Source: Roseivivax sp. GX 12232
Lineage (GTDB): Bacteria; Pseudomonadota; Alphaproteobacteria; Rhodobacterales; Rhodobacteraceae
DNA: 58,394 nucleotides
NCBI RefSeq assembly: GCF_021272185.1
Contig: NZ_JAJSEC010000014.1
Span: 1 to 58,394 of the forward strand
Reading direction: 5' to 3'
The position numbers and the translations under genes are program-made. This document shows, piece by piece, positions 2,015 through 15,250 of the stretch (within the stretch, counting starts at the first letter, position 1; every line of letters begins with the position of its first letter). The notes under the pieces were generated by a model. It ran no database searches. It saw only the letters and a program-made list of their open reading frames with translations, and was not told the DNA's origin.

Positions 2015-2983
2015 TTAAAGCAACACGCGCATCTGGTCGACCACCGGGATCGGCTTCCAGATCGTCGTCGAATTCTCCCGGTCGAAACCGGCCTTTGTAG
2101 TCCATTGCTTGACCACTTCCCGAACCGGGTCGCGATGGTTCCACCGCCAGACAATCTCGTCGAGGTATCGCTGAAGGTGTTGTCGACCGAAGTTGTGGTA
2201 AACCTCGACCAGAGCGCGCTGCACCTGTGAGATGACTGCTTCGGCCGTGTTGACATGGGCGCCGGTCTCCGGGTTGGCGTATTCGTGCTGGCTGTGGATT
2301 ACACGATGGTGCTCCTCCATCGTCGCGCCAATGCCGAGGTAGCTCGTGCTCCCATCCGTCATGAGCGTGATGTCCTTGGAGCCAATCCGGCCCGCAATGA
2401 TTGTCTCCAGCGAGGCGCGCTGGTCATCGGAAACAACCTTGGCGCGCGCCTGTCCGTCGCGAGAGGCCGCTACGAAGATCATCGGCTTTCCGGTGCCCTT
2501 ACCCCTTGGATTGTAGGCCCCCGAGAGGGATTTAGGGGCTCCGCCGACATAGGCCTCATCCACCTCGACGATGTCCTCCAGCGGCAGCAGCTCCGCGTTC
2601 CGGTCGTCCATCATTTCCCGGATGGCATGCCCCATCTTCCACGCGGTCTTTTGGTTCGCGCCGAGCAGCCGCGCCATCACGACCGAGGAGATACCTTTGC
2701 TCGATGTGAGCACCAGGAACATCGCGCAGATCCATATACGCAAGTCGAGCTTGGTGCCGTGCATCGGGGTCAGCGTGGTGACCGTGAACTGGCGGCGACA
2801 GTCTCGGCACTGGTAGAGCCCCGGTCGGCAGCTCCGGCCGCGCAGCGCCGAAGAGTCCACTGACCCGCAATGCGGACAGTGCCTGCCGGTCGACCATATG
2901 ATACCCTCCAGGAAGCGGCGCGCGTGCATCTCGCTCGGCATCCGCTTCCAGATGTCAGGGATCGACTTCAGTTCAGTGATCAT
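2015..2983 (-). CDS. IS1595-family transposase (ISXO2-like)
   Basis: A transposase of 322 residues that would cut and join the element's ends. An N-terminal zinc ribbon is visible (CPHC near residue 37 and CRDC near 59), followed by a helix-turn-helix-like stretch and the ISXO2 catalytic domain. That domain shows DEAYVGG (about 140), MTDGS (about 209), and a HVNTAE motif (about 247) where this family carries Asn rather than Glu. A conserved basic stretch WRWNHR follows. The ATG at 2983 is preferred over one 33 bases upstream because GGAGAG lies just before it. The frame is uninterrupted and of family length, so the enzyme is probably functional. Confidence 0.93.
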   Translation of the reverse strand: MITELKSIPDIWKRMPSEMHARRFLEGIIWSTGRHCPHCGSVDSSALRGRSCRPGLYQCRDCRRQFTVTTLTPMHGTKLDLRIWICAMFLVLTSSKGISSVVMARLLGANQKTAWKMGHAIREMMDDRNAELLPLEDIVEVDEAYVGGAPKSLSGAYNPRGKGTGKPMIFVAASRDGQARAKVVSDDQRASLETIIAGRIGSKDITLMTDGSTSYLGIGATMEEHHRVIHSQHEYANPETGAHVNTAEAVISQVQRALVEVYHNFGRQHLQRYLDEIVWRWNHRDPVREVVKQWTTKAGFDRENSTTIWKPIPVVDQMRVLL

Positions 2984-3119
2984 CAGGGCTCTCCGCTCGT
3001 TCCGCCAACCGAGCAATGTTGGCCCGGCGGGTGTTCAGCGAAGAAGAAATCTGGAAAATCGCGCAAAATGCGGCGAGATGGCGGAAAAGCTAAGCCAGGT
3101 CAGCGCCTTGCGCTATTAG

Positions 3120-3427: not shown

Positions 3428-4879
3428 ATGCCTGCAAACCTGCGCGATCTGGACAGTTTCGGTGAAGTAGCGGCAGAAGATGACGCCATCCTACTAAACT
3501 ACTTCCTTTCAACCGATACTGTCCAACGGGTCGAAGAAGGAGGCGCATTTCTTGTTATTGGTCGAAAAGGAGCGGGCAAGACTGCAATTGTTCGCTACTT
3601 TACAGAAGGCAATGAAAGGGACCGATCACGGGCGCTGAACCTTCGCAACTATCCGTGGAATGTCCATGCATCGCGCATAGATCGTGGTGCGGATGCTGTG
3701 GATGCATATGTCGCTTCGTGGAGATACTTGATCGCCGTCCAGATTGCTGCTTGGGCCCTCGAGAATTCCCAAGCAACATTCAATGACAACCAGCGCCCTT
3801 TGAGGGAATTTCTCGAGGCAAACTATGGCGGGCCCCGACCAAAGCTGTCTGACATCATTCGACCAGCCAAGCTGCGAGTTCGAGGGTTCAATGTTGCGCC
3901 TCAGGTCCTGGGCAACGCGCTTGGATCTGTCGATCTTGAACGCGGTGAGGGCGATCATAACCTCGGAATGGAGCTCGAGGCGCTGACGCAAGCATTACTC
4001 CAAAGTGCTGTTGCCGTTATGCGGGAGTGCCGGCTTGGAGCGTTCTACCTGCACTTCGATGAACTGGATGCTGGGCTCGAAGAGGTGAACGAGACGCGGA
4101 AGCAAATGCTGATCGGTCTCATCTTGGCGATCCGAGGGATGCGGCGCGAAATGGTGGCTCTGGAGGCCGAAGCCAAGCCGGTTCTCTACCTACGAACAGA
4201 CCTGTGGGACGATCTAACCTTCTCAGACAAGAACAAGATCACTCAAGGGCAATCTGTTTTGATTGAGTGGACCCCGGATCAGCTGAAGGATCTGGTCAAC
4301 GTGCGCCTCCGGTCGAAGCTCGGCGATGATGTCGCGTGGGGAAATATCATCGACGAAGATCTGATGCGAGGATCGCAGCCGAAATGGAACCATATCGTCG
4401 CTCGGACCTTGCGGCGGCCGCGAGATGTCATTCATTTCTTGAACGTCGCTCTGCGTGTTGCCAAGAGGCGAGACGATGCCGAACTCATATTCAGTAATCG
4501 CGACATTGTGGAGTCGAGGACCGATTACTCAGCCTACCTGAAGCGGGAACTGGACGACGAGATCTTGCCCCACTGGCGCCGATGGGAGGAAGCGCTTCAG
4601 ACTCTTTCAGCCATTGCTACGGAGACCTTCAGTGCCGAGGGTTTTGGGGAGGAATACCCACGCAAAAAGTCGGCGGGGAATCCTTGCGACGCTGGGGAAG
4701 CGCTGAGGTTGCTGCACAGGTTCTCGGTGATTGGCTACTTGAAACGCAGTGGCTACGGCGGATCAAGTTGGGCGTTCATGTATGAAGAACCTGATCGCGG
4801 TTGGGACGCGCATGCAACTCAGTTCAAGGTGCATCCCGGACTGAAGGAGCACGCTGGGTTGCGTGAGGAGCGTAGGTAA
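3428..4879 (+). CDS. P-loop ATPase, Sll1717-like, orphan
   Basis: A cytoplasmic protein of 483 residues. The Walker A motif GRKGAGKT is at residues 45-52, and a Walker B-like FYLHFDELD is near 207-215. The N-terminal layout (FLVIGRKGAGKT after a short acidic leader) resembles the 'P-loop ATPase, Sll1717 family' class of STAND/KAP-like NTPases. The rest is helical and hydrophilic, with no membrane segment or nuclease motif I can see. AAAGGA lies upstream of the ATG. Base composition is lower in GC than core genes. It stands alone between the insertion sequence and a GFA gene, with 283 bases upstream that hold nothing recognised. Such orphan ATPases on islands are often suspected of anti-phage or stress roles, but nothing here proves one. 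Confidence 0.6.
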   Translation: MPANLRDLDSFGEVAAEDDAILLNYFLSTDTVQRVEEGGAFLVIGRKGAGKTAIVRYFTEGNERDRSRALNLRNYPWNVHASRIDRGADAVDAYVASWRYLIAVQIAAWALENSQATFNDNQRPLREFLEANYGGPRPKLSDIIRPAKLRVRGFNVAPQVLGNALGSVDLERGEGDHNLGMELEALTQALLQSAVAVMRECRLGAFYLHFDELDAGLEEVNETRKQMLIGLILAIRGMRREMVALEAEAKPVLYLRTDLWDDLTFSDKNKITQGQSVLIEWTPDQLKDLVNVRLRSKLGDDVAWGNIIDEDLMRGSQPKWNHIVARTLRRPRDVIHFLNVALRVAKRRDDAELIFSNRDIVESRTDYSAYLKRELDDEILPHWRRWEEALQTLSAIATETFSAEGFGEEYPRKKSAGNPCDAGEALRLLHRFSVIGYLKRSGYGGSSWAFMYEEPDRGWDAHATQFKVHPGLKEHAGLREERR

Positions 4880-6220: not shown

Positions 6221-7288
6221 ATGCCCATCGCACCCGACAGCCTTCCGGCGCTTCTCGACCATGGTTTCGACACGGTGATCGACGTGCGCTCGCCCGCCGA
6301 ATTCGCCGAGGACCACGTGCCGGGCGCGATCAACCTGCCGGTGCTCGACAACGCCGAGCGCGCGCGGGTGGGCACGATCTACAAGCAGGAGTCGCCCTTC
6401 AAGGCGCGCAAGATCGGCGCGGCGCTGGTCTTCAAGAACGCCGCGCGGCACATCGAGGGGCCGTTGGCCGGCCACGAGGGCGGCTGGCGTCCGTTGGTCT
6501 ATTGCTGGCGCGGCGGGCAGCGTTCGGGCTCGCTGGCCTGGATGCTGAAAGAGATCGGCTGGCGCTCGGAGGTGATCCAGGGCGGTTACAAGACCTACCG
6601 GCGGCTGGTGACGGCGCGGCTCTACGACCAGGGGCTGGGGCTGCGGCTGGTGCAGCTCGGCGGCTATACCGGCACCGCCAAGACCGACCTTCTGCACCGG
6701 CTCGCGGCGCGGGGCGTGCAGGTCATCGACCTCGAGGGGCTGGCGCGGCACCGGGGCTCGCTCCTCGGCGACCGGCCGGGCGGGCAGCCGAGCCAAAAGG
6801 CCTTCGAGAGCGCGCTGGCGCGCGAGCTCCTGGCGCTCGATCCGGCGCGGCCAGTGGTGGTCGAGGCGGAATCGAGCAAGATCGGTCAGGTGATCCTGCC
6901 GCCGGCGCTCTGGGCCGCGATGAAGGCCGCGCCCTGGATCGAGGTTTCGGCGCCGGTCTCGGCGCGCACGCATTACCTGGTCGAGGCCTACGAGGACGTG
7001 CTGGCCGACCCCGAGCGCCTGCGCGACAAGCTTGCGCCGCTGCAGCGGCACCGGGGGCGGGCGCTGATCGAGACCTGGTTCGAGCGCATCACCGAGGGCG
7101 ACCAACCGGGCCTCGTCGAAAGCCTGATGACCGCGCATTACGACCCGGCCTACGACAAGTCGATGAAGGCCATGGCACCGGAAATTGCGGCGCGGATCGA
7201 GATGGCGCGGCTGGACCCGGAGGCGCTGGAGAGGGCGGCGGGCGATATCGCGGCGGCGCTGGAGCGGATGCCGAAGGTCTGGGCTTAG
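6221..7288 (+). CDS. mnmH: tRNA 2-selenouridine synthase
   Basis: MnmH (SelU/YbbB), 355 residues, replaces sulfur in 2-thiouridine at wobble position 34 of certain tRNAs with selenium from selenophosphate, via a geranylated intermediate. The rhodanese domain spans about 1-130, with catalytic Cys95 in YCWRGGQRSGS. A P-loop-like GGYTGTAKT at 147-155 opens the C-terminal nucleotide-binding domain. Length is as usual for the family. It faces the selD fusion gene tail to tail across 128 bases, so donor and user of selenophosphate sit side by side. No selA, selB or selC is in the window, so use of selenium in proteins cannot be judged here. Confidence 0.95.
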   Translation: MPIAPDSLPALLDHGFDTVIDVRSPAEFAEDHVPGAINLPVLDNAERARVGTIYKQESPFKARKIGAALVFKNAARHIEGPLAGHEGGWRPLVYCWRGGQRSGSLAWMLKEIGWRSEVIQGGYKTYRRLVTARLYDQGLGLRLVQLGGYTGTAKTDLLHRLAARGVQVIDLEGLARHRGSLLGDRPGGQPSQKAFESALARELLALDPARPVVVEAESSKIGQVILPPALWAAMKAAPWIEVSAPVSARTHYLVEAYEDVLADPERLRDKLAPLQRHRGRALIETWFERITEGDQPGLVESLMTAHYDPAYDKSMKAMAPEIAARIEMARLDPEALERAAGDIAAALERMPKVWA

Positions 7289-7416
7289 GGCCGGCGGGCT
7301 GGTTGCGCCTGTCTTTCCAAACGGCGCATTTATTATTTTAATTCAGTGGATTGCGGGGTGGAGCTCATCCATTGCGGCAAGCCTCAACCATCCACCAGCG
7401 GGCCACCGCCCCCACC

Positions 7417-9630
7417 TCACACCACGTCCACGCGCCCGACGCTCTCGGTCAGCGTGCCGATCTCTTCCGCGGGATAGCCCGCCTCGCGCAGCGCGGCGAG
7501 GGCCGGGCCGGTGGCCTCGGGCGGCAGGGCGGCGAGCATCCCTCCGGCGGTCTGCGGATCGAAGAGCAGCGCGTGGCGCGGGCTCTCGGGCAGATGTGGC
7601 GCGACGCGGCGGTTCTCGCGGTAGAGCGAGGAGTGATGACCCGCCTGCGCCAGCGCCTCGGCCCCGGGCATGAGCGGCACCGAGGCCAGTTCCAGCCGCA
7701 GCCCGCAGCCCGAGGCGGCGGAGATATTCACCGCGTGGCCGATCAGACCGAAGCCCGTCACATCGGTCATCGCACGGGCCTCGCCCAGGCAGGCGGCGGC
7801 GCTCCATTGCTCGCGGCACATCATCTGCCAGCACTGCGCCACGGCGCGGCCCGGCGCGGCGCTTAACATCTCGGCGGCGAGGATCGTGCCCGAGCCGATG
7901 GGCTTGGTCAGCACCAGCCGGTCGCCGGGCCGGGCCCCGCTCAGCGTGATCGGCGCGCGCTCCAGAAGGCCCGTGACCGAGAAGCCCACCGTCAGCTCGT
8001 CGCCGATCGAGGAATGGCCGCCCACGACCTCGGCCCCGGCGGCGGTGATGACCTCGGCGGCGGCGGCGGCGATCTCGGAGAGCGTGCGCCCGGTCAGCGC
8101 GTCCGAGGCGCGCGGCAGCACCAGGTTCAATGTCGCGGCCTGCGGCGCGGCGCCCATGGCGAGGATGTCGCCCAGGGCGTGATGCGCGGCGATGCGGGTC
8201 ATCAGGACCGGGTCCTCGACGAAGGCGCGCAGGTGGTCGGTCGAGAGCACCTGCCGGGTGCCGCCGGTCTCCAGAAGCGCCGCGTCGTCGCCGGGCAGGG
8301 CGGTCACATCCCCGCGCCGGGGCGGGCCCAGGACCGAGAGCGCGCGCGACAGCGTGGATTGCCCGACCTTGGCGCCGCAGCCGCCGCAGAGCGGCTTGTC
8401 GCCAAGCGCCTCCTCGAGTCCCGCGGCGCGGATCTTCGGCGGCGCGGCGAGCGGCATGGCGGGCAGCTCGCGGAAGCGTTGCATGAACTTCAGGTCGATG
8501 TTGGTCTTCCAGCGCCAGACCCAGGCGCCCGAGAAGGTCAGCCCGAAGCGCTCGCCCATGGCCGCCTGACGGCCCAGCGAGACGAGCTTCAGGTAGTCGC
8601 GCTGCGGGCGGTAGGGGCGCATCTCCCCGGCGCCGAGCGTGGCGCGCAGGTTGTCGTAAAGGACCGGCGCGGCGCGCACCGCGTAGACGCCTGCCTTGGG
8701 GCGCGGGGCGAAGGCCAGATGCGCGCAATCGCCCGCTGCGAAGATCGCCGGATCGCCGCTTTGCAGGTGTTCGGAGACCGAGAGGAACCCCTGGTCGTGC
8801 GGCAGGCCCATCTCGGCCACCCAAGGGTGCGGCCGGGCCCCGGCGGCGCCCACGACCAGCGCGGCAGGCAGTTCGCGGCCGTCCGAGAAGACCACGCTTT
8901 GCGGCGTGATTTCGGAGATATCCGCGTATTCCGAAACCCTTATGCGGTAGTCCTCAAGTGCCGCGCGAAGCCGCGCGCGGGCCCGGCGCGAGAGCCCCGC
9001 GAGCAGCGTCTCGCGTTCGAGCAGCACCACCTCGGCGGGCCTCTGGCGCAGGGCATGGGCCATGGCCAGCGCCAGCTCGACGCCCGCGACCCCGCCGCCG
9101 ATCACCACCACCCGGGCCGGGCCGCTTTCGGCCAGGAAGCGCTGCCAGCTCTCGCGGTCGGCGGCGCGCGGGCGGCCGGTCTCGGTCTCGGCGAGGAACC
9201 GGCGCCAGCGGTCGGCGAAGGGACCGAGCGGCTTGGCGCCCACCGCGTGCTCTCCGAAGCCCTTGAGCCCGGGCATGGCCGAAGTCACGCCCACGTCGAG
9301 GGACAAGACGTCGTAGCCGACCGGCGGGCGGCCCGGCACGGTCACCTCTCGCGCCGCGGGCGAGACCGCGGTGGCCGCACCGAGGATCAGCCGGGCGCCC
9401 GCGGCGCGCGCCAGCCGCACCAGGTCGATGTCCAGCGCCTCGCGGGTGTAATGGCCCGCCACATGGCCCGGAAGCATGCCCGAATAGGCGGTCACGGGGC
9501 CCGGGTCGATCAGCGTCAGCCGCGCGCCCGGCAGCGGGTCCATGGCCCATTTGCGCAGCACCAGCGCATGGGTGTGCCCGCCGCCCACCAGGACGAGGTC
9601 ACGGGTCTTCGGCAGCGGCGGCTGATGCAT
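7417..9630 (-). CDS. selD: FAD oxidoreductase-SelD fusion
   Basis: A protein of 737 residues made of two enzymes. Residues 1 to about 400 form an NDH-2-like FAD/NAD(P) oxidoreductase, with LVLVGGGHTH near 12-21, VVVIGGGVAGVE near 175-190, and a C-terminal FAD motif IFAAGDCAHL. Residues about 410-737 are selenide, water dikinase, which makes selenophosphate from selenide and ATP. Its nucleophile loop LCGGCGAKVG (about 411-420) carries Cys, not Sec, and GDDAALL and GGHSSIGDE follow. The start at 9630 is chosen for the AGGAGG nine bases upstream; an in-frame ATG at 9759 lacks one. This fusion is known in some bacteria, and the oxidoreductase half may supply or reduce selenium. It is divergent from the Anbu operon. 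Confidence 0.93.
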   Translation of the reverse strand: MHQPPLPKTRDLVLVGGGHTHALVLRKWAMDPLPGARLTLIDPGPVTAYSGMLPGHVAGHYTREALDIDLVRLARAAGARLILGAATAVSPAAREVTVPGRPPVGYDVLSLDVGVTSAMPGLKGFGEHAVGAKPLGPFADRWRRFLAETETGRPRAADRESWQRFLAESGPARVVVIGGGVAGVELALAMAHALRQRPAEVVLLERETLLAGLSRRARARLRAALEDYRIRVSEYADISEITPQSVVFSDGRELPAALVVGAAGARPHPWVAEMGLPHDQGFLSVSEHLQSGDPAIFAAGDCAHLAFAPRPKAGVYAVRAAPVLYDNLRATLGAGEMRPYRPQRDYLKLVSLGRQAAMGERFGLTFSGAWVWRWKTNIDLKFMQRFRELPAMPLAAPPKIRAAGLEEALGDKPLCGGCGAKVGQSTLSRALSVLGPPRRGDVTALPGDDAALLETGGTRQVLSTDHLRAFVEDPVLMTRIAAHHALGDILAMGAAPQAATLNLVLPRASDALTGRTLSEIAAAAAEVITAAGAEVVGGHSSIGDELTVGFSVTGLLERAPITLSGARPGDRLVLTKPIGSGTILAAEMLSAAPGRAVAQCWQMMCREQWSAAACLGEARAMTDVTGFGLIGHAVNISAASGCGLRLELASVPLMPGAEALAQAGHHSSLYRENRRVAPHLPESPRHALLFDPQTAGGMLAALPPEATGPALAALREAGYPAEEIGTLTESVGRVDVV

Positions 9631-9809
9631 CTCGGGTCGACCTCCTGACGGCGGAGCCTGCGGGTTGCGCCGCCTTACGGCAAGCGCAATTGGACCGCAA
9701 ATTTCGGGCCTTGCGACCCGGATGTTCGGCTGCGAGACCCGGCGCCACGCCGAAAGCATTGCCTTTCCGGCCCGCAGCGTGTGTCCTGACGGGGCAGTGA
9801 GGAGTTCGA

Positions 9810-11222
9810 ATGCCAGAGACCTTCAACGAGATGATCGACGGCGGGCAGGTGCGCCCGGCCTACCAAAGCCTGGAGCGGTGGCAGAACGAGATGCCCGCCG
9901 ACCTGAGGCAGATGAAACAAAGCGAGGCCGAGGCGCTGTTCCGCCGGGTGGGGATCACCTTCGCGGTCTACGGCGAGGGCGGCGACCCCGAGCGGCTCAT
10001 CCCCTTCGACATGTTCCCGCGGGTCTTCACGGCTGGCGAATGGCGCAAGCTGGAACGCGGGATCAGGCAGCGGGCGGCGGCGCTCAACGCCTTCCTGGCC
10101 GATGTCTACGACCAGCGCGAGATCATCCGCGCGGGCAAGATCCCCGAACATCTCGTCACCCATAACGAGGCCTTCGAACGCGCCGTGGTGGGCATGCGCC
10201 CGCCGCGCAACGTCTGGAGCCATATCGTCGGCGTCGACCTGGTGCGCACCGGGCCCGACCAGTTCTACGTGCTCGAGGACAACTGCCGCACGCCCTCGGG
10301 CGTCTCCTACATGCTGCAGAACCGCGAGATCATGATGCGGATGTTCCCGCATCTCTTCGTGGAGAACCGCATCGCGCCGGTCGACGGCTATGCCGATGCG
10401 CTGCGCCACACGCTGGCCTCGGTCGCGCCGAAGAAATGCGACGGCGATCCGACGGTGGTGATCCTCACGCCGGGGCAGTTCAACTCGGCCTATTACGAAC
10501 ATTCCTTCCTCGCGGACCTCATGGGGGTCGAGCTGGTCGAAGGGCAGGACCTCTTCGTGGAGGGCGACTTCTGCTGGATGCGCACCACCGAGGGGCCGAA
10601 GAAGGTCGACGTGATCTACCGCCGGATCGACGACGCCTTCCTCGATCCGCTGTGCTTCCGGCCGGACTCGATGCTGGGTGTGCCGGGGCTGATGAACGTC
10701 TACCGCTCGGGCGGGGTGTCGATCTGCTCGGCCCCGGGTGCGGGTGTCGCCGACGACAAGGCGATCTACACCTTCGTGCCCGACATGATCCGGTTCTACT
10801 TGGGCGAGGCGCCGATCCTCGAGAACGTGCCGACCTGGCAATGCGCCAAGCCCGACGAGTGCAAATACGTGCTCGAACATCTCTCGGAGCTGGTGGTCAA
10901 GGAGGTGCACGGCTCGGGCGGCTACGGCATGCTCGTCGGGCCCAAGGCCGACCAGAGCCAGATCGAGGCCTTCCGCCACAAGATCACCGAGAAGCCCTGG
11001 AACTACATCGCCCAGCCGACGCTGGCGCTCTCGGCCTGTCCGACCTTCGTGGAAGAAGGCGTGGCGCCGCGCCATGTCGACCTGCGCCCCTATTGCCTGG
11101 TCGGCGAACGTATCGAACTCGTGCCCGGCGGCCTGACCCGCGTGGCCCTGAACGAGGGATCGCTTGTCGTGAACTCGAGCCAGGGCGGCGGCGTCAAGGA
11201 CACCTGGGTCCTGGCGGAGTGA
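9810..11222 (+). CDS. Circularly permuted ATP-grasp protein
   Basis: A protein of 470 residues of the circularly permuted type 2 ATP-grasp family (DUF404/DUF407). Conserved stretches include FYVLEDNCRTPSGVSYML (about 150-167), VDVIYRRIDDAFLDP near 267, KEVHGSGGYGM near 366, and the C-terminal LVVNSSQGGG. ATP-grasp enzymes usually join a carboxylate to an amine or thiol, so this one may build a peptide-like or gamma-glutamyl bond. It is the first gene of a four-gene operon (4 bases before the alpha-E gene) with transglutaminase-like and Anbu peptidase genes, the arrangement typical of Anbu clusters. The substrate is unknown. Confidence 0.92.
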   Translation: MPETFNEMIDGGQVRPAYQSLERWQNEMPADLRQMKQSEAEALFRRVGITFAVYGEGGDPERLIPFDMFPRVFTAGEWRKLERGIRQRAAALNAFLADVYDQREIIRAGKIPEHLVTHNEAFERAVVGMRPPRNVWSHIVGVDLVRTGPDQFYVLEDNCRTPSGVSYMLQNREIMMRMFPHLFVENRIAPVDGYADALRHTLASVAPKKCDGDPTVVILTPGQFNSAYYEHSFLADLMGVELVEGQDLFVEGDFCWMRTTEGPKKVDVIYRRIDDAFLDPLCFRPDSMLGVPGLMNVYRSGGVSICSAPGAGVADDKAIYTFVPDMIRFYLGEAPILENVPTWQCAKPDECKYVLEHLSELVVKEVHGSGGYGMLVGPKADQSQIEAFRHKITEKPWNYIAQPTLALSACPTFVEEGVAPRHVDLRPYCLVGERIELVPGGLTRVALNEGSLVVNSSQGGGVKDTWVLAE

Positions 11223-11226
11223 CATC

Positions 11227-12180
11227 ATGCTGAGCCGCACCGCATCACACCTTTACTGGATGGCCCGCTACATCGAACGCGCCGAGACCACGGCGCGGCT
11301 GTTGCAGATGGGCGCAAGAAACGCGCTTCTGCCGGACATCGGCGGGGGCTTCCGCAACGACTGGGAGGCCGTCCTCCAGGCGCTTGGCCAGCTCGAGGCC
11401 TTCCGCGAGAAATACGGCGACCCCGTGCAGCGCAACGTCGAGACCTTCCTGTTCTTCGACGCCTCGAACCCGGCCTCGGTCATGTCCTGCTTCTCGGCGG
11501 CGCGCGAGAACGGGCGGGTGGTCCGCACCGCGCTGACGAGCCAGGTCTGGGACGCGATCAACACCACCTTCCAGGAGATGCAGGCGCTGCACCGGATGGA
11601 GCGCTCCAAGCTGATCGTGAACGAGCTGGCCGACTGGACGCTGCGCTCGGGCGCGCTGATCCGCGGCGCCATCGAAAGCACGCAGCTGCGCAACGACGGC
11701 TTCCGCTTCATGGGGCTCGGCCATTCGATCGAGCGCGGCGACAACACCGCGCGGCTGCTCGACGTGAAGTATTACGTGCTGCTGCCCAGCCTCTCCTACG
11801 TCGGCTCGGCGCTCGACCAGTCGCAATGGGCGACGCTTCTGCGCTCGATGCATGCGCATCGCGCCTTCGTCTGGACCTACAAGGGCGAGATCACCGCCGC
11901 CAAGATCGCGCATCTGCTGATCCTGAACCGGCAGTTCCCGCGCTCGCTCCTCTCGGCGACCCAGGCGACGGTGGACCACCTCGACGCGCTGGCGCGCGGC
12001 TACGGGATCACGCCCAAGGCGACCTCGCTGGCGCGCGGGCACCTGGGCGAACTGGCCGAGGCCCATGTCGAGGACATCTTCGACGAGGGCCTGCACCAGT
12101 TCCTCCTGCGCTTCATGGGCCGCAACGGGGAAATCGCCCAGGCCGTGCAATCGAGCTATCTTGTGGGGGTGCCGGAATGA
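11227..12180 (+). CDS. Alpha-E domain protein (DUF403)
   Basis: An all-helical protein of 317 residues of the alpha-E (DUF403) family, recognised from its start (MLSRTASHLYWMARYIERAE) and the later GLGHSIERGDNTARLLD and FVWTYKGEI stretches. In many genomes it accompanies, or is fused to, the permuted ATP-grasp protein and is thought to be its structural or catalytic partner. It starts 4 bases after the ATP-grasp gene, and its stop overlaps the start of the transglutaminase gene (ATGA). No signal peptide is present, so it should act in the cytoplasm. Confidence 0.92.
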   Translation: MLSRTASHLYWMARYIERAETTARLLQMGARNALLPDIGGGFRNDWEAVLQALGQLEAFREKYGDPVQRNVETFLFFDASNPASVMSCFSAARENGRVVRTALTSQVWDAINTTFQEMQALHRMERSKLIVNELADWTLRSGALIRGAIESTQLRNDGFRFMGLGHSIERGDNTARLLDVKYYVLLPSLSYVGSALDQSQWATLLRSMHAHRAFVWTYKGEITAAKIAHLLILNRQFPRSLLSATQATVDHLDALARGYGITPKATSLARGHLGELAEAHVEDIFDEGLHQFLLRFMGRNGEIAQAVQSSYLVGVPE

Positions 12181-13013
12181 AACTCAGCGTCAGCCATGTC
12201 ACCCGCTACGTCTTCGAGACCCCGGTCACGCGGTTGATCCAGTCGCACCGGCTCACGCCCTCGCGCTGCGCCAACCAGCGGGTGATCTCCTGGGAGGTCA
12301 ACATGCTGAAGGCGGTGCGCGGCGCGGCCTTCCGCGACGGCGCCGGCGACTGGACCGAGACGGTCAGCGTCGACGGGCCGCTCGATGCCTTCGAGATCGA
12401 GGTCACCGGCGAGATCGAGACCGAGGATTTCGCCGGCGTCCTGCGCGACCACCGCGAGAAGGTGCCGCCCTCGGCCTATCTGACGCCCACCGCGCGGACC
12501 TGGCCGAGCCAGCCGCTGCGCGAGCTGGCCGAGGACACTTTGGCCCCGCTCGACGGGCGGCCGGCGATCGAACGCGCCCACGCGCTCTCGAACGCCGTGG
12601 CCGATGCGGTGGAATACGTCCCCGGCGAGACCGAGAGCCTGACCACCGCGGCCGAGGCCCTGGAAGGCGGCAAGGGTGTCTGCCAGGACCAGACCCATGT
12701 GCTGATGGCCGTGGCGCAGATGTCCGGCGTGCCGGCGCGCTACGTCACGGGCTATCTCTTCAGTGCCATGCCCGACCATATCTCCGAGGCGAGCCACGCC
12801 TGGGCGGAGCTTTACGTGGATGACCTGGGCTGGGTCGGCTTCGACCCCTCGAACCGGGTCTGCCCGGATGACCGCTACATCCGCCTGGGCTCGGGCTACG
12901 ATTCCCAGGACGCGGCCCCGATCCGGGGCGTGGTCTCGGGCGGGGCGGGCGAGCGGCTCGACGTCAGCGTGAAGGTGCGCGACATCGCGGCCAGCGAGCA
13001 ACAGCAGCAGTAG
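12177..13013 (+). CDS. Transglutaminase-like cysteine peptidase
   Basis: A protein of 278 residues with an N-terminal bacterial transglutaminase-like beta region (from KLSVSHVTRYVFETPV) and a transglutaminase-like catalytic core. The triad is visible: Cys in GGKGVCQDQTHV (about 167), His in EASHAWAELYV (about 204), and Asp in VGFDPSNR (about 219). Such enzymes cleave or form amide bonds. The ATG overlaps the stop of the alpha-E gene, and 97 bases separate it from the Anbu peptidase gene. In the operon it may process the product of the ATP-grasp enzyme, as an opposing or trimming activity. That role is inferred from context only. Confidence 0.9.
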   Translation: MKLSVSHVTRYVFETPVTRLIQSHRLTPSRCANQRVISWEVNMLKAVRGAAFRDGAGDWTETVSVDGPLDAFEIEVTGEIETEDFAGVLRDHREKVPPSAYLTPTARTWPSQPLRELAEDTLAPLDGRPAIERAHALSNAVADAVEYVPGETESLTTAAEALEGGKGVCQDQTHVLMAVAQMSGVPARYVTGYLFSAMPDHISEASHAWAELYVDDLGWVGFDPSNRVCPDDRYIRLGSGYDSQDAAPIRGVVSGGAGERLDVSVKVRDIAASEQQQQ

Positions 13014-13110
13014 GACAGGGGCCCCCGGGGCGGGCTGCCGTGGCGGCGGCATTGCGCCCGGGGGCGGCTTGGCAGTATCCCTCGACGGCTGCTGGAATAG
13101 GAATGATTCG

Positions 13111-13830
13111 ATGACCTATTGCGTGGGTCTCCTGCTGAACGAAGGCATGGTGCTCCTGGCCGACACGCGCACCAACGCGGGGCTCGACAACATCTCGACC
13201 TACCGCAAGATGTTCACCTTCGAGGCGCCGGGCGACCGGGTCGTGGCGATCATGACCGCGGGCAGCCTCTCGGTCACCCAGACCACCATCGCGCGGCTGA
13301 CCGAGGCGATCGAGACCCAGGACGAAAGCCGCTCGATCATGCATGCGCCTTCGATGCTGGGCGTGGCCGAGATCGTCGGCACCACGCTCGGCGAGGTCAC
13401 CCACGAGGTGCGCGGCAAGATGCAGCGCCAGGACAGCGTCTCGGCCTCCATGCTGGTGGCCGGCCAGCGCCGCGACGGCGGGATGCGGCTTTTCCTGATC
13501 TACTCGCAGGGCAATTTCATCGAGGCCACCGCCGAGACGCCTTACCTGCAGATCGGCGAGCACAAGTACGGCAAGCCGATCCTCGACCGGGTAATCACGC
13601 CCGAGACCTCGCTGGCGGATGCCGAGAAGGCGGTGCTTCTGTCGATGGATTCGACGCTGCGCTCGAACCTCTCGGTGGGCATGCCGCTCGACCTCGTGGT
13701 GATCGGCAACGATGCGCTGGAGATCACCCGCGCGCGGCGGATCGAAGCCGAGGATCCCTCGTTCCAGCAGATGAGCCAGGCCTGGTCCGAGGCGCTGCGC
13801 CGCGCCTTCCAGGAGATCGACGCGGCCTGA
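13111..13830 (+). CDS. Anbu proteasome-like peptidase
   Basis: A protein of 239 residues of the Anbu (ancestral beta-subunit) family, a bacterial relative of HslV and 20S beta subunits. After removal of Met the chain begins with Thr, the expected nucleophile (start MTYCVGLLLNEG). The supporting Asp17 (ADTRTNAG) and Lys32 (STYRKMF) are in the proteasome positions. The ATG at 13111 is chosen because it exposes this Thr and has AGGAA before it; an upstream in-frame start at 13069 would bury it. It closes the ATP-grasp, alpha-E and transglutaminase set, the classic Anbu neighbourhood. Known Anbu proteins form open ring or helical assemblies. Natural substrates are unsettled. Confidence 0.93.
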   Translation: MTYCVGLLLNEGMVLLADTRTNAGLDNISTYRKMFTFEAPGDRVVAIMTAGSLSVTQTTIARLTEAIETQDESRSIMHAPSMLGVAEIVGTTLGEVTHEVRGKMQRQDSVSASMLVAGQRRDGGMRLFLIYSQGNFIEATAETPYLQIGEHKYGKPILDRVITPETSLADAEKAVLLSMDSTLRSNLSVGMPLDLVVIGNDALEITRARRIEAEDPSFQQMSQAWSEALRRAFQEIDAA

Positions 13831-13957
13831 GCGTTTCCATTACGGAAAAACTGCGGAGCCGGGCATCAACGTGATTGCCCGACGCGGGGGCATGTGGATA
13901 AGATTCTTGCGATCCTGTCGGTTCGCCGCAGCCCCAGCGTGAGGCACGTCTTTTCCC

Positions 13958-15250
13958 ATGTGTATCTACTGCGACAAGTCCGCCGCCATCAATGCCGAGA
14001 CCAACACGGGCGCGGGGGGCTGGGCCGGGCTGGCCGCGACCTCGCCGCTGCCGACCACCTACACCGACGCCATCGACTGGGGCACCCAGGTGACCTCGGG
14101 GCAGGTGAACGGCGACGGCGACATGGTCATCGACTATTACTTCGCCCCCGAGGGCGAGCGCTTCGGCTTCTTCACCTGCGAGGAATGGACCGACTACGAG
14201 AAGGCCCAGGTAGAGGCCGCCTTCGACACCTTCGAGGTCTTCCTCGACGTCGAATTCGTCGAGACCACCAACCCCGGTGACGCCGAGTTCGAACTGCACA
14301 AGTTTGATGCGAGAGACCTCTTTCTCGGCGTGATGAACCCGCCCGGCCTTTTCAACGAAGGCGACGCGGGCTTCAGCAGCACCGGCATCGGCTGGAACGA
14401 CCCCGGCGCGCTCGAGCAGGGCGGCTTCAGCTTCGGCATCCTGATCCACGAGTTCGGCCACGGGCTGGGGCTGGCGCATCCGCATGACACCGGCGGCGGC
14501 TCCTCGGTCCTGCCGGGGGTCTCCTCTAGCGCGGACACCGGGCTTTTCGACCTCAACCAGGGCGTCTACACGATGATGTCCTATATCGACGGCTGGGCGA
14601 CCAACCCCGACGGGGCGCTCTCGCCGGTGGTGACGGCGGACTACGGCTACCAGGGCACGCCCATGGCGCTGGACATCGCGGTCCTGCAGGACAAATACGG
14701 CGCCAACATGGACCATGCCACGGGCGACGACACCTATACACTGGCCGATGTGAACGCGCCGGGCACCTTCTACAGCTGCATCTGGGACGCGGGCGGCACC
14801 GATGAGCTGCGCTACGACGGCAGCGCCGACGCGGTGCTGGACCTGCGGCCCGCCACGCTCGAAGTCGAGGAGGGCGGCGGCGGCTGGATTTCCTACGCCG
14901 AGGGCATCTACGGCGGCTACACCATCGCCAACGGCGTGGTGATCGAGAATGCCACCGGCGGCTCGGGCGATGACGCGCTCGTGGGCAATGCCGCCGACAA
15001 CGTGCTGACCGGCGGGGCGGGGGACGACACCTTCATCTTCGTCGAAGGGCAGGGTGGCTACGACACGATCACCGACTGGGGCAACGGCGACGACCAGCTC
15101 GACCTGTCGGACTACGGGCGGATCGGGCTGCGCAACTTCTCCTTCGACCGCACGCCGGAAGGCTTCGAGCTGAGCTTCTTCGACCAGACGATCCTCTTCG
15201 AGGGCATCGGCGCTTCGACCACCGCGGCGGAGGCGGAGTATCTGGTCTGA
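13958..15250 (+). CDS. Serralysin-like M10 metalloprotease
   Basis: A protein of 430 residues predicted to be secreted by a type I system, since no N-terminal signal is seen. The zinc site HEFGHGLGLAHP is at 164-175, and the Met-turn TMMSY is at 205-209, the metzincin hallmarks. A beta-roll of calcium-binding repeats follows at about 333-363 (GGSGDDALVGN, LTGGAGDDTF), then the Peptidase_M10_C tail. It lacks the long repeat arrays of adhesins and is near the usual 450-480 residues. The start at 13958 has no strong ribosome binding site. It lies 127 bases after the Anbu gene on the same strand, and no type I transporter is adjacent. Confidence 0.9.
   Translation: MCIYCDKSAAINAETNTGAGGWAGLAATSPLPTTYTDAIDWGTQVTSGQVNGDGDMVIDYYFAPEGERFGFFTCEEWTDYEKAQVEAAFDTFEVFLDVEFVETTNPGDAEFELHKFDARDLFLGVMNPPGLFNEGDAGFSSTGIGWNDPGALEQGGFSFGILIHEFGHGLGLAHPHDTGGGSSVLPGVSSSADTGLFDLNQGVYTMMSYIDGWATNPDGALSPVVTADYGYQGTPMALDIAVLQDKYGANMDHATGDDTYTLADVNAPGTFYSCIWDAGGTDELRYDGSADAVLDLRPATLEVEEGGGGWISYAEGIYGGYTIANGVVIENATGGSGDDALVGNAADNVLTGGAGDDTFIFVEGQGGYDTITDWGNGDDQLDLSDYGRIGLRNFSFDRTPEGFELSFFDQTILFEGIGASTTAAEAEYLV

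Follow-up and report, generated by a model that had tools for sequence, protein, structure and literature searches.

According to PMC5666114 and PMC6376114, the Anbu operon was described by Valas and Bourne in 2008 and by Iyer et al. in 2009. Its four-gene order, open split-ring structures of Anbu and an operon co-expression study are in print (PMC5666114, PMC6376114), and tagging, de-tagging, degradation and nitrogen-starvation turnover have been hypothesized as its function; neither structures nor pull-downs have revealed the chemistry of this known operon. Here we describe an Anbu operon at positions 9,810–13,830 of a 58,394-nucleotide stretch of DNA from Roseivivax sp. GX 12232 (contig NZ_JAJSEC010000014.1; the window), and compare it with relatives across Pseudomonadota. 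An initial annotation of the window had called the system little described, which is half true, the work just cited and a phosphate-release assay of the ATP-grasp enzyme being already in print. The comparison suggests a hierarchy, with the bond-making half of the operon as core and Anbu as an optional partner, and this is the new addition of the present analysis.

The four-gene operon and its proteins

Four genes follow one another on the forward strand: an ATP-grasp gene (9,810–11,222, 470 residues), an Alpha-E (DUF403) partner (11,227–12,180, 317 residues), a transglutaminase-like gene (12,177–13,013, 278 residues), and Anbu, a proteasome beta-like N-terminal nucleophile (Ntn) hydrolase (13,111–13,830, 239 residues). 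The first two are 4 nucleotides apart, the ATG of the transglutaminase-like gene overlaps the stop of Alpha-E (4-nucleotide overlap), and 97 nucleotides precede Anbu. Mechanical open reading frames (ORFs) begin at an ATG at 11,826 for the transglutaminase-like gene (395 residues), which is too early, and at a TTG at 13,069 for Anbu; the starts at 12,177 and at the ATG at 13,111 were set on homology and because the threonine of Anbu needs exposure. The locus is the published Anbu operon, of the Anbu-1 type, and an ordinary example of a known gene set; that it is a standard Anbu-1 operon of four genes, from a Rhodobacteraceae-like bacterium, is close to certain.

Eighty relative loci were fetched and eight, with Anbu near a contig end, were set aside. 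All four genes are present in the same order and on the same strand in 67 of the 72 informative relatives, which excludes a chance arrangement; the other five have Anbu, with the trio not in the expected place. The coupling of the four genes, the family names and the catalytic residues proposed in the initial annotation were all borne out. Mean column identity to the window, drawn mostly from close relatives, is 0.73 for ATP-grasp (143 sequences), 0.63 for Anbu, 0.51 for Alpha-E and 0.46 for the transglutaminase-like protein, making ATP-grasp the most conserved gene of the set.

The ATP-grasp protein matches the full length of PF14403 (CP_ATPgrasp_2; positions 1–374 of 374, 548 bits, E 1.4e-164) and, over residues 5–469, PDB entry 3n6x (636 bits, E 3e-190). 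It belongs to the circularly permuted type 2 family and is a putative amide-bond ligase. Both CP_ATPgrasp_2 and Alpha-E occur in single copy in the genome of the window.

Alpha-E matches PF04168 (287 bits, E 2.3e-85) and has no match among PDB sequences (phmmer, E ≤ 0.1). Its residues 12–99 (11,260–11,523) and 164–255 (11,716–11,991) are related by hhalign (probability 98.7, E 1.9e-16), compared with E 0.15 in a control with the second half reversed. Each half carries one ER motif, and E17, R18, E169 and R170 are all at least 99% conserved (143 sequences). Judged from these alignments Alpha-E is internally duplicated, and no statement of this duplication was found in the accessible open-access literature searched. 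An AlphaFold2 model is all-helical (predicted local distance difference test, pLDDT, 91.2; predicted template modelling score, pTM, 0.90), and a search for relatives of its fold gave none that was convincing. A paralogous system has natural fusions in which Alpha-E follows the ATP-grasp domain within one protein (35 ORFs of 768–880 residues); no such fusion occurs in the genome of the window. The scores of one modelled fusion (pLDDT 87.3, pTM 0.83; scores only, coordinates and error matrix not inspected) are consistent with a fixed ATP-grasp/Alpha-E interface, and are no proof of it.

The transglutaminase-like protein matches PF01841 and PF08379 (Transglut_core and Bact_transglu_N), and a Cys169–His207–Asp223 triad can be read off its sequence. 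Histidine and aspartate are kept in 160/160 aligned sequences and cysteine in 155/160, so the product is probably an active cysteine enzyme, though not always. The cysteine-less proteins, with histidine and aspartate intact, are those of loci L156, L164, L234, L186 and L065 of our collection.

Anbu matches five distinct PDB sequences (5loy, 5nyj, 5nyf, 5nyw and 5lox; E 2e-74 to 9e-59), the alignment to 5loy extending to residue 236 of 239. Three of these carry the name "Anbu" and two "Peptidase"; 5lox, among the latter, is named Anbu in PMC8665760. The N-terminus reads MTYC, and with the threonine numbered 1, Thr1 (13,114–13,116), Asp17 (13,162–13,164) and Lys32 (13,207–13,209) are kept in 174/174 aligned sequences. 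The S1 pocket, T20-Y30-T48-L52-T55, is of the Anbu-1 type defined from P. aeruginosa (T20, F30, T48, L52, S55; PMC5666114) with two conservative changes, tyrosine at 30 and threonine at 55, each the most frequent residue at its position in relatives. Among named Anbu matches the nearest come from Roseivivax and Alloyangia species, at 73–75% identity (records of the window's own genome possibly omitted). Elsewhere among the relatives, a gene without a Pfam match at E ≤ 0.001 is inserted between the transglutaminase-like gene and Anbu at L092 (9,646–10,377) and L145 (9,279–9,908), and one in-frame TAG interrupts the Anbu frame of L074 (genome G093), perhaps a decaying copy.

The ATP-grasp/Alpha-E core and its additions

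Across 149 genomes of the family, every one from a different genus, 110 have Alpha-E and 105 have Anbu. All 105 Anbu genomes carry Alpha-E, and five of the 110 Alpha-E genomes are without Anbu. A wider survey covered 299 Pseudomonadota genomes. CP_ATPgrasp_2 was found in 161 (157 above the family cut-off) and Alpha-E in 156. The five CP_ATPgrasp_2 genomes without Alpha-E have matches of E 1e-7 to 4e-4, all other matches in the table having E 1e-113 or better, and the strong ATP-grasp matches and Alpha-E occupy the identical 156 genomes. Anbu is present in 102 of the 299, a set that a 31-sequence Anbu profile recovered identically, and 101 of these carry Alpha-E (Fisher p 1.6e-37, uncorrected for shared ancestry). 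By both single-sequence and profile search, 55 of the 156 ATP-grasp/Alpha-E genomes are without Anbu. DUF2126, an amidoligase family (the single copy checked has a transglutaminase domain in the same protein), occurs in 83 of the 299, all 83 with Alpha-E, and 22 of the 156 pair-bearing genomes have neither Anbu nor DUF2126. On these phylum counts the ATP-grasp/Alpha-E pair is the core, to which Anbu, or elsewhere DUF2126, is added; a transglutaminase-like gene usually adjoins the pair.

In at least 13 genomes Anbu is unlinked from Alpha-E and yet kept: in six the two lie on different contigs, and in seven they share a contig at a distance above 200 kb (0.2–1.7 Mb). This retention argues for a functional link of Anbu to ATP-grasp/Alpha-E beyond their shared operon. 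By coordinates, 15 genomes have Anbu next to DUF2126 and in the same orientation, a second type of Anbu neighbourhood (G150, G158, G166, G174, G178, G184, G201, G205, G209, G212, G224, G271, G310, G321 and G355; G212 is also among the 13 unlinked).

With somewhat less than even confidence, we favour a mechanism centred on the ligase, in which Anbu is an optional hydrolase of the ligase product. ATP-grasp would activate a carboxylate as an acyl phosphate and, with Alpha-E as the acceptor or scaffold half, form an amide or isopeptide bond, which the transglutaminase-like enzyme would cut or transfer; and Anbu, its Thr1 exposed once the methionine is removed, would turn over the ligase product or conjugate as an optional hydrolase and not as a general proteasome. 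In sigma-54 lineages the ligase side would often be switched on in nitrogen limitation, the window's own genome being without sigma-54. The amide-bond step draws on family knowledge and the pairing on genome counts, and we infer the role of Anbu from its dependence on the pair together with its dispensability.

The same genes could instead form a tag-and-degrade system, in which proteins would receive a peptide or amino-acid tag from ATP-grasp/Alpha-E together with the transglutaminase, and Anbu, acting as a small proteasome, would break them down. Precedents exist for a tagging enzyme kept without its protease, and Anbu depends strongly on the pair genome-wide. P. aeruginosa Anbu, moreover, binds proteasome inhibitors and forms a ring-like particle with numerous identical sites, features that the authors read as those of a degrading protease (PMC5666114). 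This possibility, which we hold to be rather unlikely though worth serious weight, is set against the 55 of 156 pair-bearing genomes without Anbu, the absence of an AAA+ unfoldase among the tested neighbours and of any known for Anbu (PMC5666114), and the lack of both peptidase activity on standard substrates and a complex with operon partners (PMC6376114). In those 55 core-bearing genomes the ligase is therefore unlikely to serve degradation by Anbu. The "tagging-and-degradation or peptide-making" of the initial annotation matches the published pair of guesses; the counts given here do not place Anbu at the centre.

Sigma-54 sites and nitrogen control

Outside the family 93 genomes have Anbu, and in 60 of them the region upstream of the Anbu-type ATP-grasp gene was read, a strict sigma-54 match requiring GG and GC and at least 10 of 11 positions. 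Such a site precedes ATP-grasp in 20/60 regions on the coding strand vs 0/60 on the reverse strand, and at the looser setting (at least 9 of 11) in 32/60 vs 1/60. Most sites lie about 40–130 bases 5′ of the start codon, as estimated from the hidden Markov model match. Among the genomes without Anbu (nine regions read of 55), a strict site precedes ATP-grasp in 6/9, and before the relocated Anbu genes it was found in 0/13. The accessible open-access literature searched yielded no report that sigma-54 sites accompany the ligase but not relocated Anbu.

The Rhodobacteraceae regions before ATP-grasp lack this signal (5/103 vs 8/103 on the reverse strand). No sigma-54 site was found near 9,810 in the window, and a search of its genome for Sigma54_DBD, the RpoN DNA-binding domain, gave no match; nothing here places the operon of the window in an NtrC/sigma-54 nitrogen regulon. 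A palindrome, CTGCCC-N7-GGGCAG, occurs 93–193 bases 5′ of ATP-grasp in 29 of 102 Rhodobacteraceae regions vs 3.8 expected, for example at L115, L180 and L161; it is weak in the window.

The genes of the ligase side have been linked to nitrogen limitation in print; the published data on Anbu itself conflict. In a B. cenocepacia ntrC mutant, I35_5080 to I35_5083 changed −8.2, −9.4, −9.4 and −6.0 fold, and the NtrC-dependent genes include DUF404/407, DUF403 and two transglutaminase genes (PMC5491218). P. putida KT2440 PP_2685 to PP_2688 appear to be its Anbu operon, the proteasome-like and transglutaminase genes being named in PMC7801951 and the other two assigned by gene order; under nitrogen limitation PP_2686 to PP_2688 rose 11- to 15-fold, and the proteasome-like PP_2685 1.12 (PMC7801951). 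An RpoN site has been predicted 5′ of a Bradyrhizobium CP_ATPgrasp_1 gene (PMC13207237), and COG3484 has been placed in a predicted sigma-54 regulon (PMC12316311). Doubtful as a whole is a narrower form of the mechanism we favour, with Anbu as an optional eraser: ATP-grasp and the internally duplicated Alpha-E would act in nitrogen starvation as an amide ligase, whose product many bacteria would make without Anbu, and Anbu, its synthesis largely outside nitrogen control, would undo or recycle that product instead of destroying tagged proteins.

The relocated genes also bear on a different account, in which a free peptide or small amide, for storage or signalling, would be the product of the trio, and Anbu, with a role of its own, would merely be inherited alongside. 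The trio without Anbu is common, the relocated Anbu genes lack a strong sigma-54 site, and the Anbu of G167 follows a gene that by eye resembles mutS. Yet Anbu occurs without the pair in just 1 of 102 genomes despite unlinking in at least 13, which shared ancestry alone explains poorly, and we consider this account unlikely. Nitrogen-starvation protein turnover, in which Anbu would degrade proteins unspecifically and the transglutaminase would free ammonia from glutamine residues, is named as a possibility in PMC6376114 and accords with the published induction under nitrogen limitation. It leaves unexplained the most conserved member, ATP-grasp, and its constant partner Alpha-E, as well as the 55 pair-bearing genomes without Anbu, and is very improbable.

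A number of observations weigh against the ligase-centred mechanism and the hierarchy behind it. Phosphate release from ATP by the Y. bercovieri ATP-grasp was not stimulated by Anbu, Gln or Glu, the operon proteins failed to co-purify, and Anbu cut no tested peptide (PMC6376114); Fuchs et al. rate protein degradation likelier than peptide synthesis (PMC5666114). Genome counts are not phylogenetically independent, and one of the 102 Anbu genomes (G241, locus L258) gave no match to ATP-grasp/Alpha-E and carries an open Anbu frame starting MTYC. At the G167 locus no transglutaminase match adjoins Alpha-E, and of the five proteins in 160 that have lost the transglutaminase cysteine, three come from Anbu-bearing genomes. 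At the looser setting a sigma-54 site precedes 2 of the 13 relocated Anbu genes, the Anbu genes of at least G212 and G167 lie directly 3′ of a same-strand gene, where a promoter farther upstream is possible, and sites at this setting occur in 10 of 23 sampled families. In a microarray PP2685 rose 11.1-fold together with its neighbours (PMC3325844), and earlier work cited in PMC7801951 found PP_2685 to PP_2688 all induced; Anbu can therefore follow the operon. Against strict sigma-54 dependence in P. putida, loss of rpoN left PP_2686 to PP_2688 with a 14- to 20-fold induction (PMC7801951). The comparative result shifts the question from the degradation targets of Anbu to the product of ATP-grasp/Alpha-E and its cleavage by Anbu, and the locus, although an ordinary example, makes a known puzzle more testable.

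Neighbourhood and comparison with known systems

Upstream of the operon and divergent from it is SelD, fused to a pyridine nucleotide-disulphide oxidoreductase domain at its N-terminus, and farther out MnmH; together (6,221–9,759) they make up a gene pair for tRNA selenouridine. The pair is also found upstream in Roseivivax marinus (L106), the sole locus among 80 with SelD adjoining the operon. Directly 3′ of the operon, at 13,958–15,250 on the forward strand, is a gene for a serralysin/M10-like metallopeptidase with a C-terminal M10_C domain and a weak RTX repeat, to which no match was found at this place in the 120 relative loci searched. An IS1595-type transposase gene with a zinc ribbon occupies 2,015–3,016 on the reverse strand. 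No AAA+ unfoldase is among the nearest genes tested (MnmH, the SelD fusion, the M10 peptidase and RmlD); an ORF at 3,428–4,879, 5 kb from the operon, has a sub-threshold match to AAA_16 (24.5 of 32.6 bits). Neither a sigma-70-type promoter nor a terminator pattern was found in 9,500–14,100. The genome is 99.69% complete by the tool's own figure. It carries one Anbu and, elsewhere (L002), a second proteasome-family gene that is HslV-like by score and length; DUF2126 was sought and not found.

Pup-proteasome tagging resembles the Anbu operon in linking a carboxylate-amine ligase to a proteasome relative, and differs from it in the family of the ligase. No Pup-like small protein was seen at the operon, and none was sought. 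HslV and the 20S proteasome beta subunits share with Anbu the Ntn-type N-terminal threonine, Asp17 and a lysine at 32/33 (PMC6376114); unlike them, the Anbu of the window has no unfoldase among its tested neighbours. The CP-ATP-grasp/Alpha-E fusion systems, together with transglutaminase-DUF2126 proteins, share with the window the core pair and a transglutaminase-like protein; the fusion is a single protein, about 27–32% identical to the ATP-grasp of the window in 15 loci, whereas the window has separate genes. The published Anbu operon is closest: the window shares its four families, their order, the intact catalytic residues and the Anbu-1 type S1 pocket, and with Tyr30 for phenylalanine and Thr55 for serine it lies within the known range.

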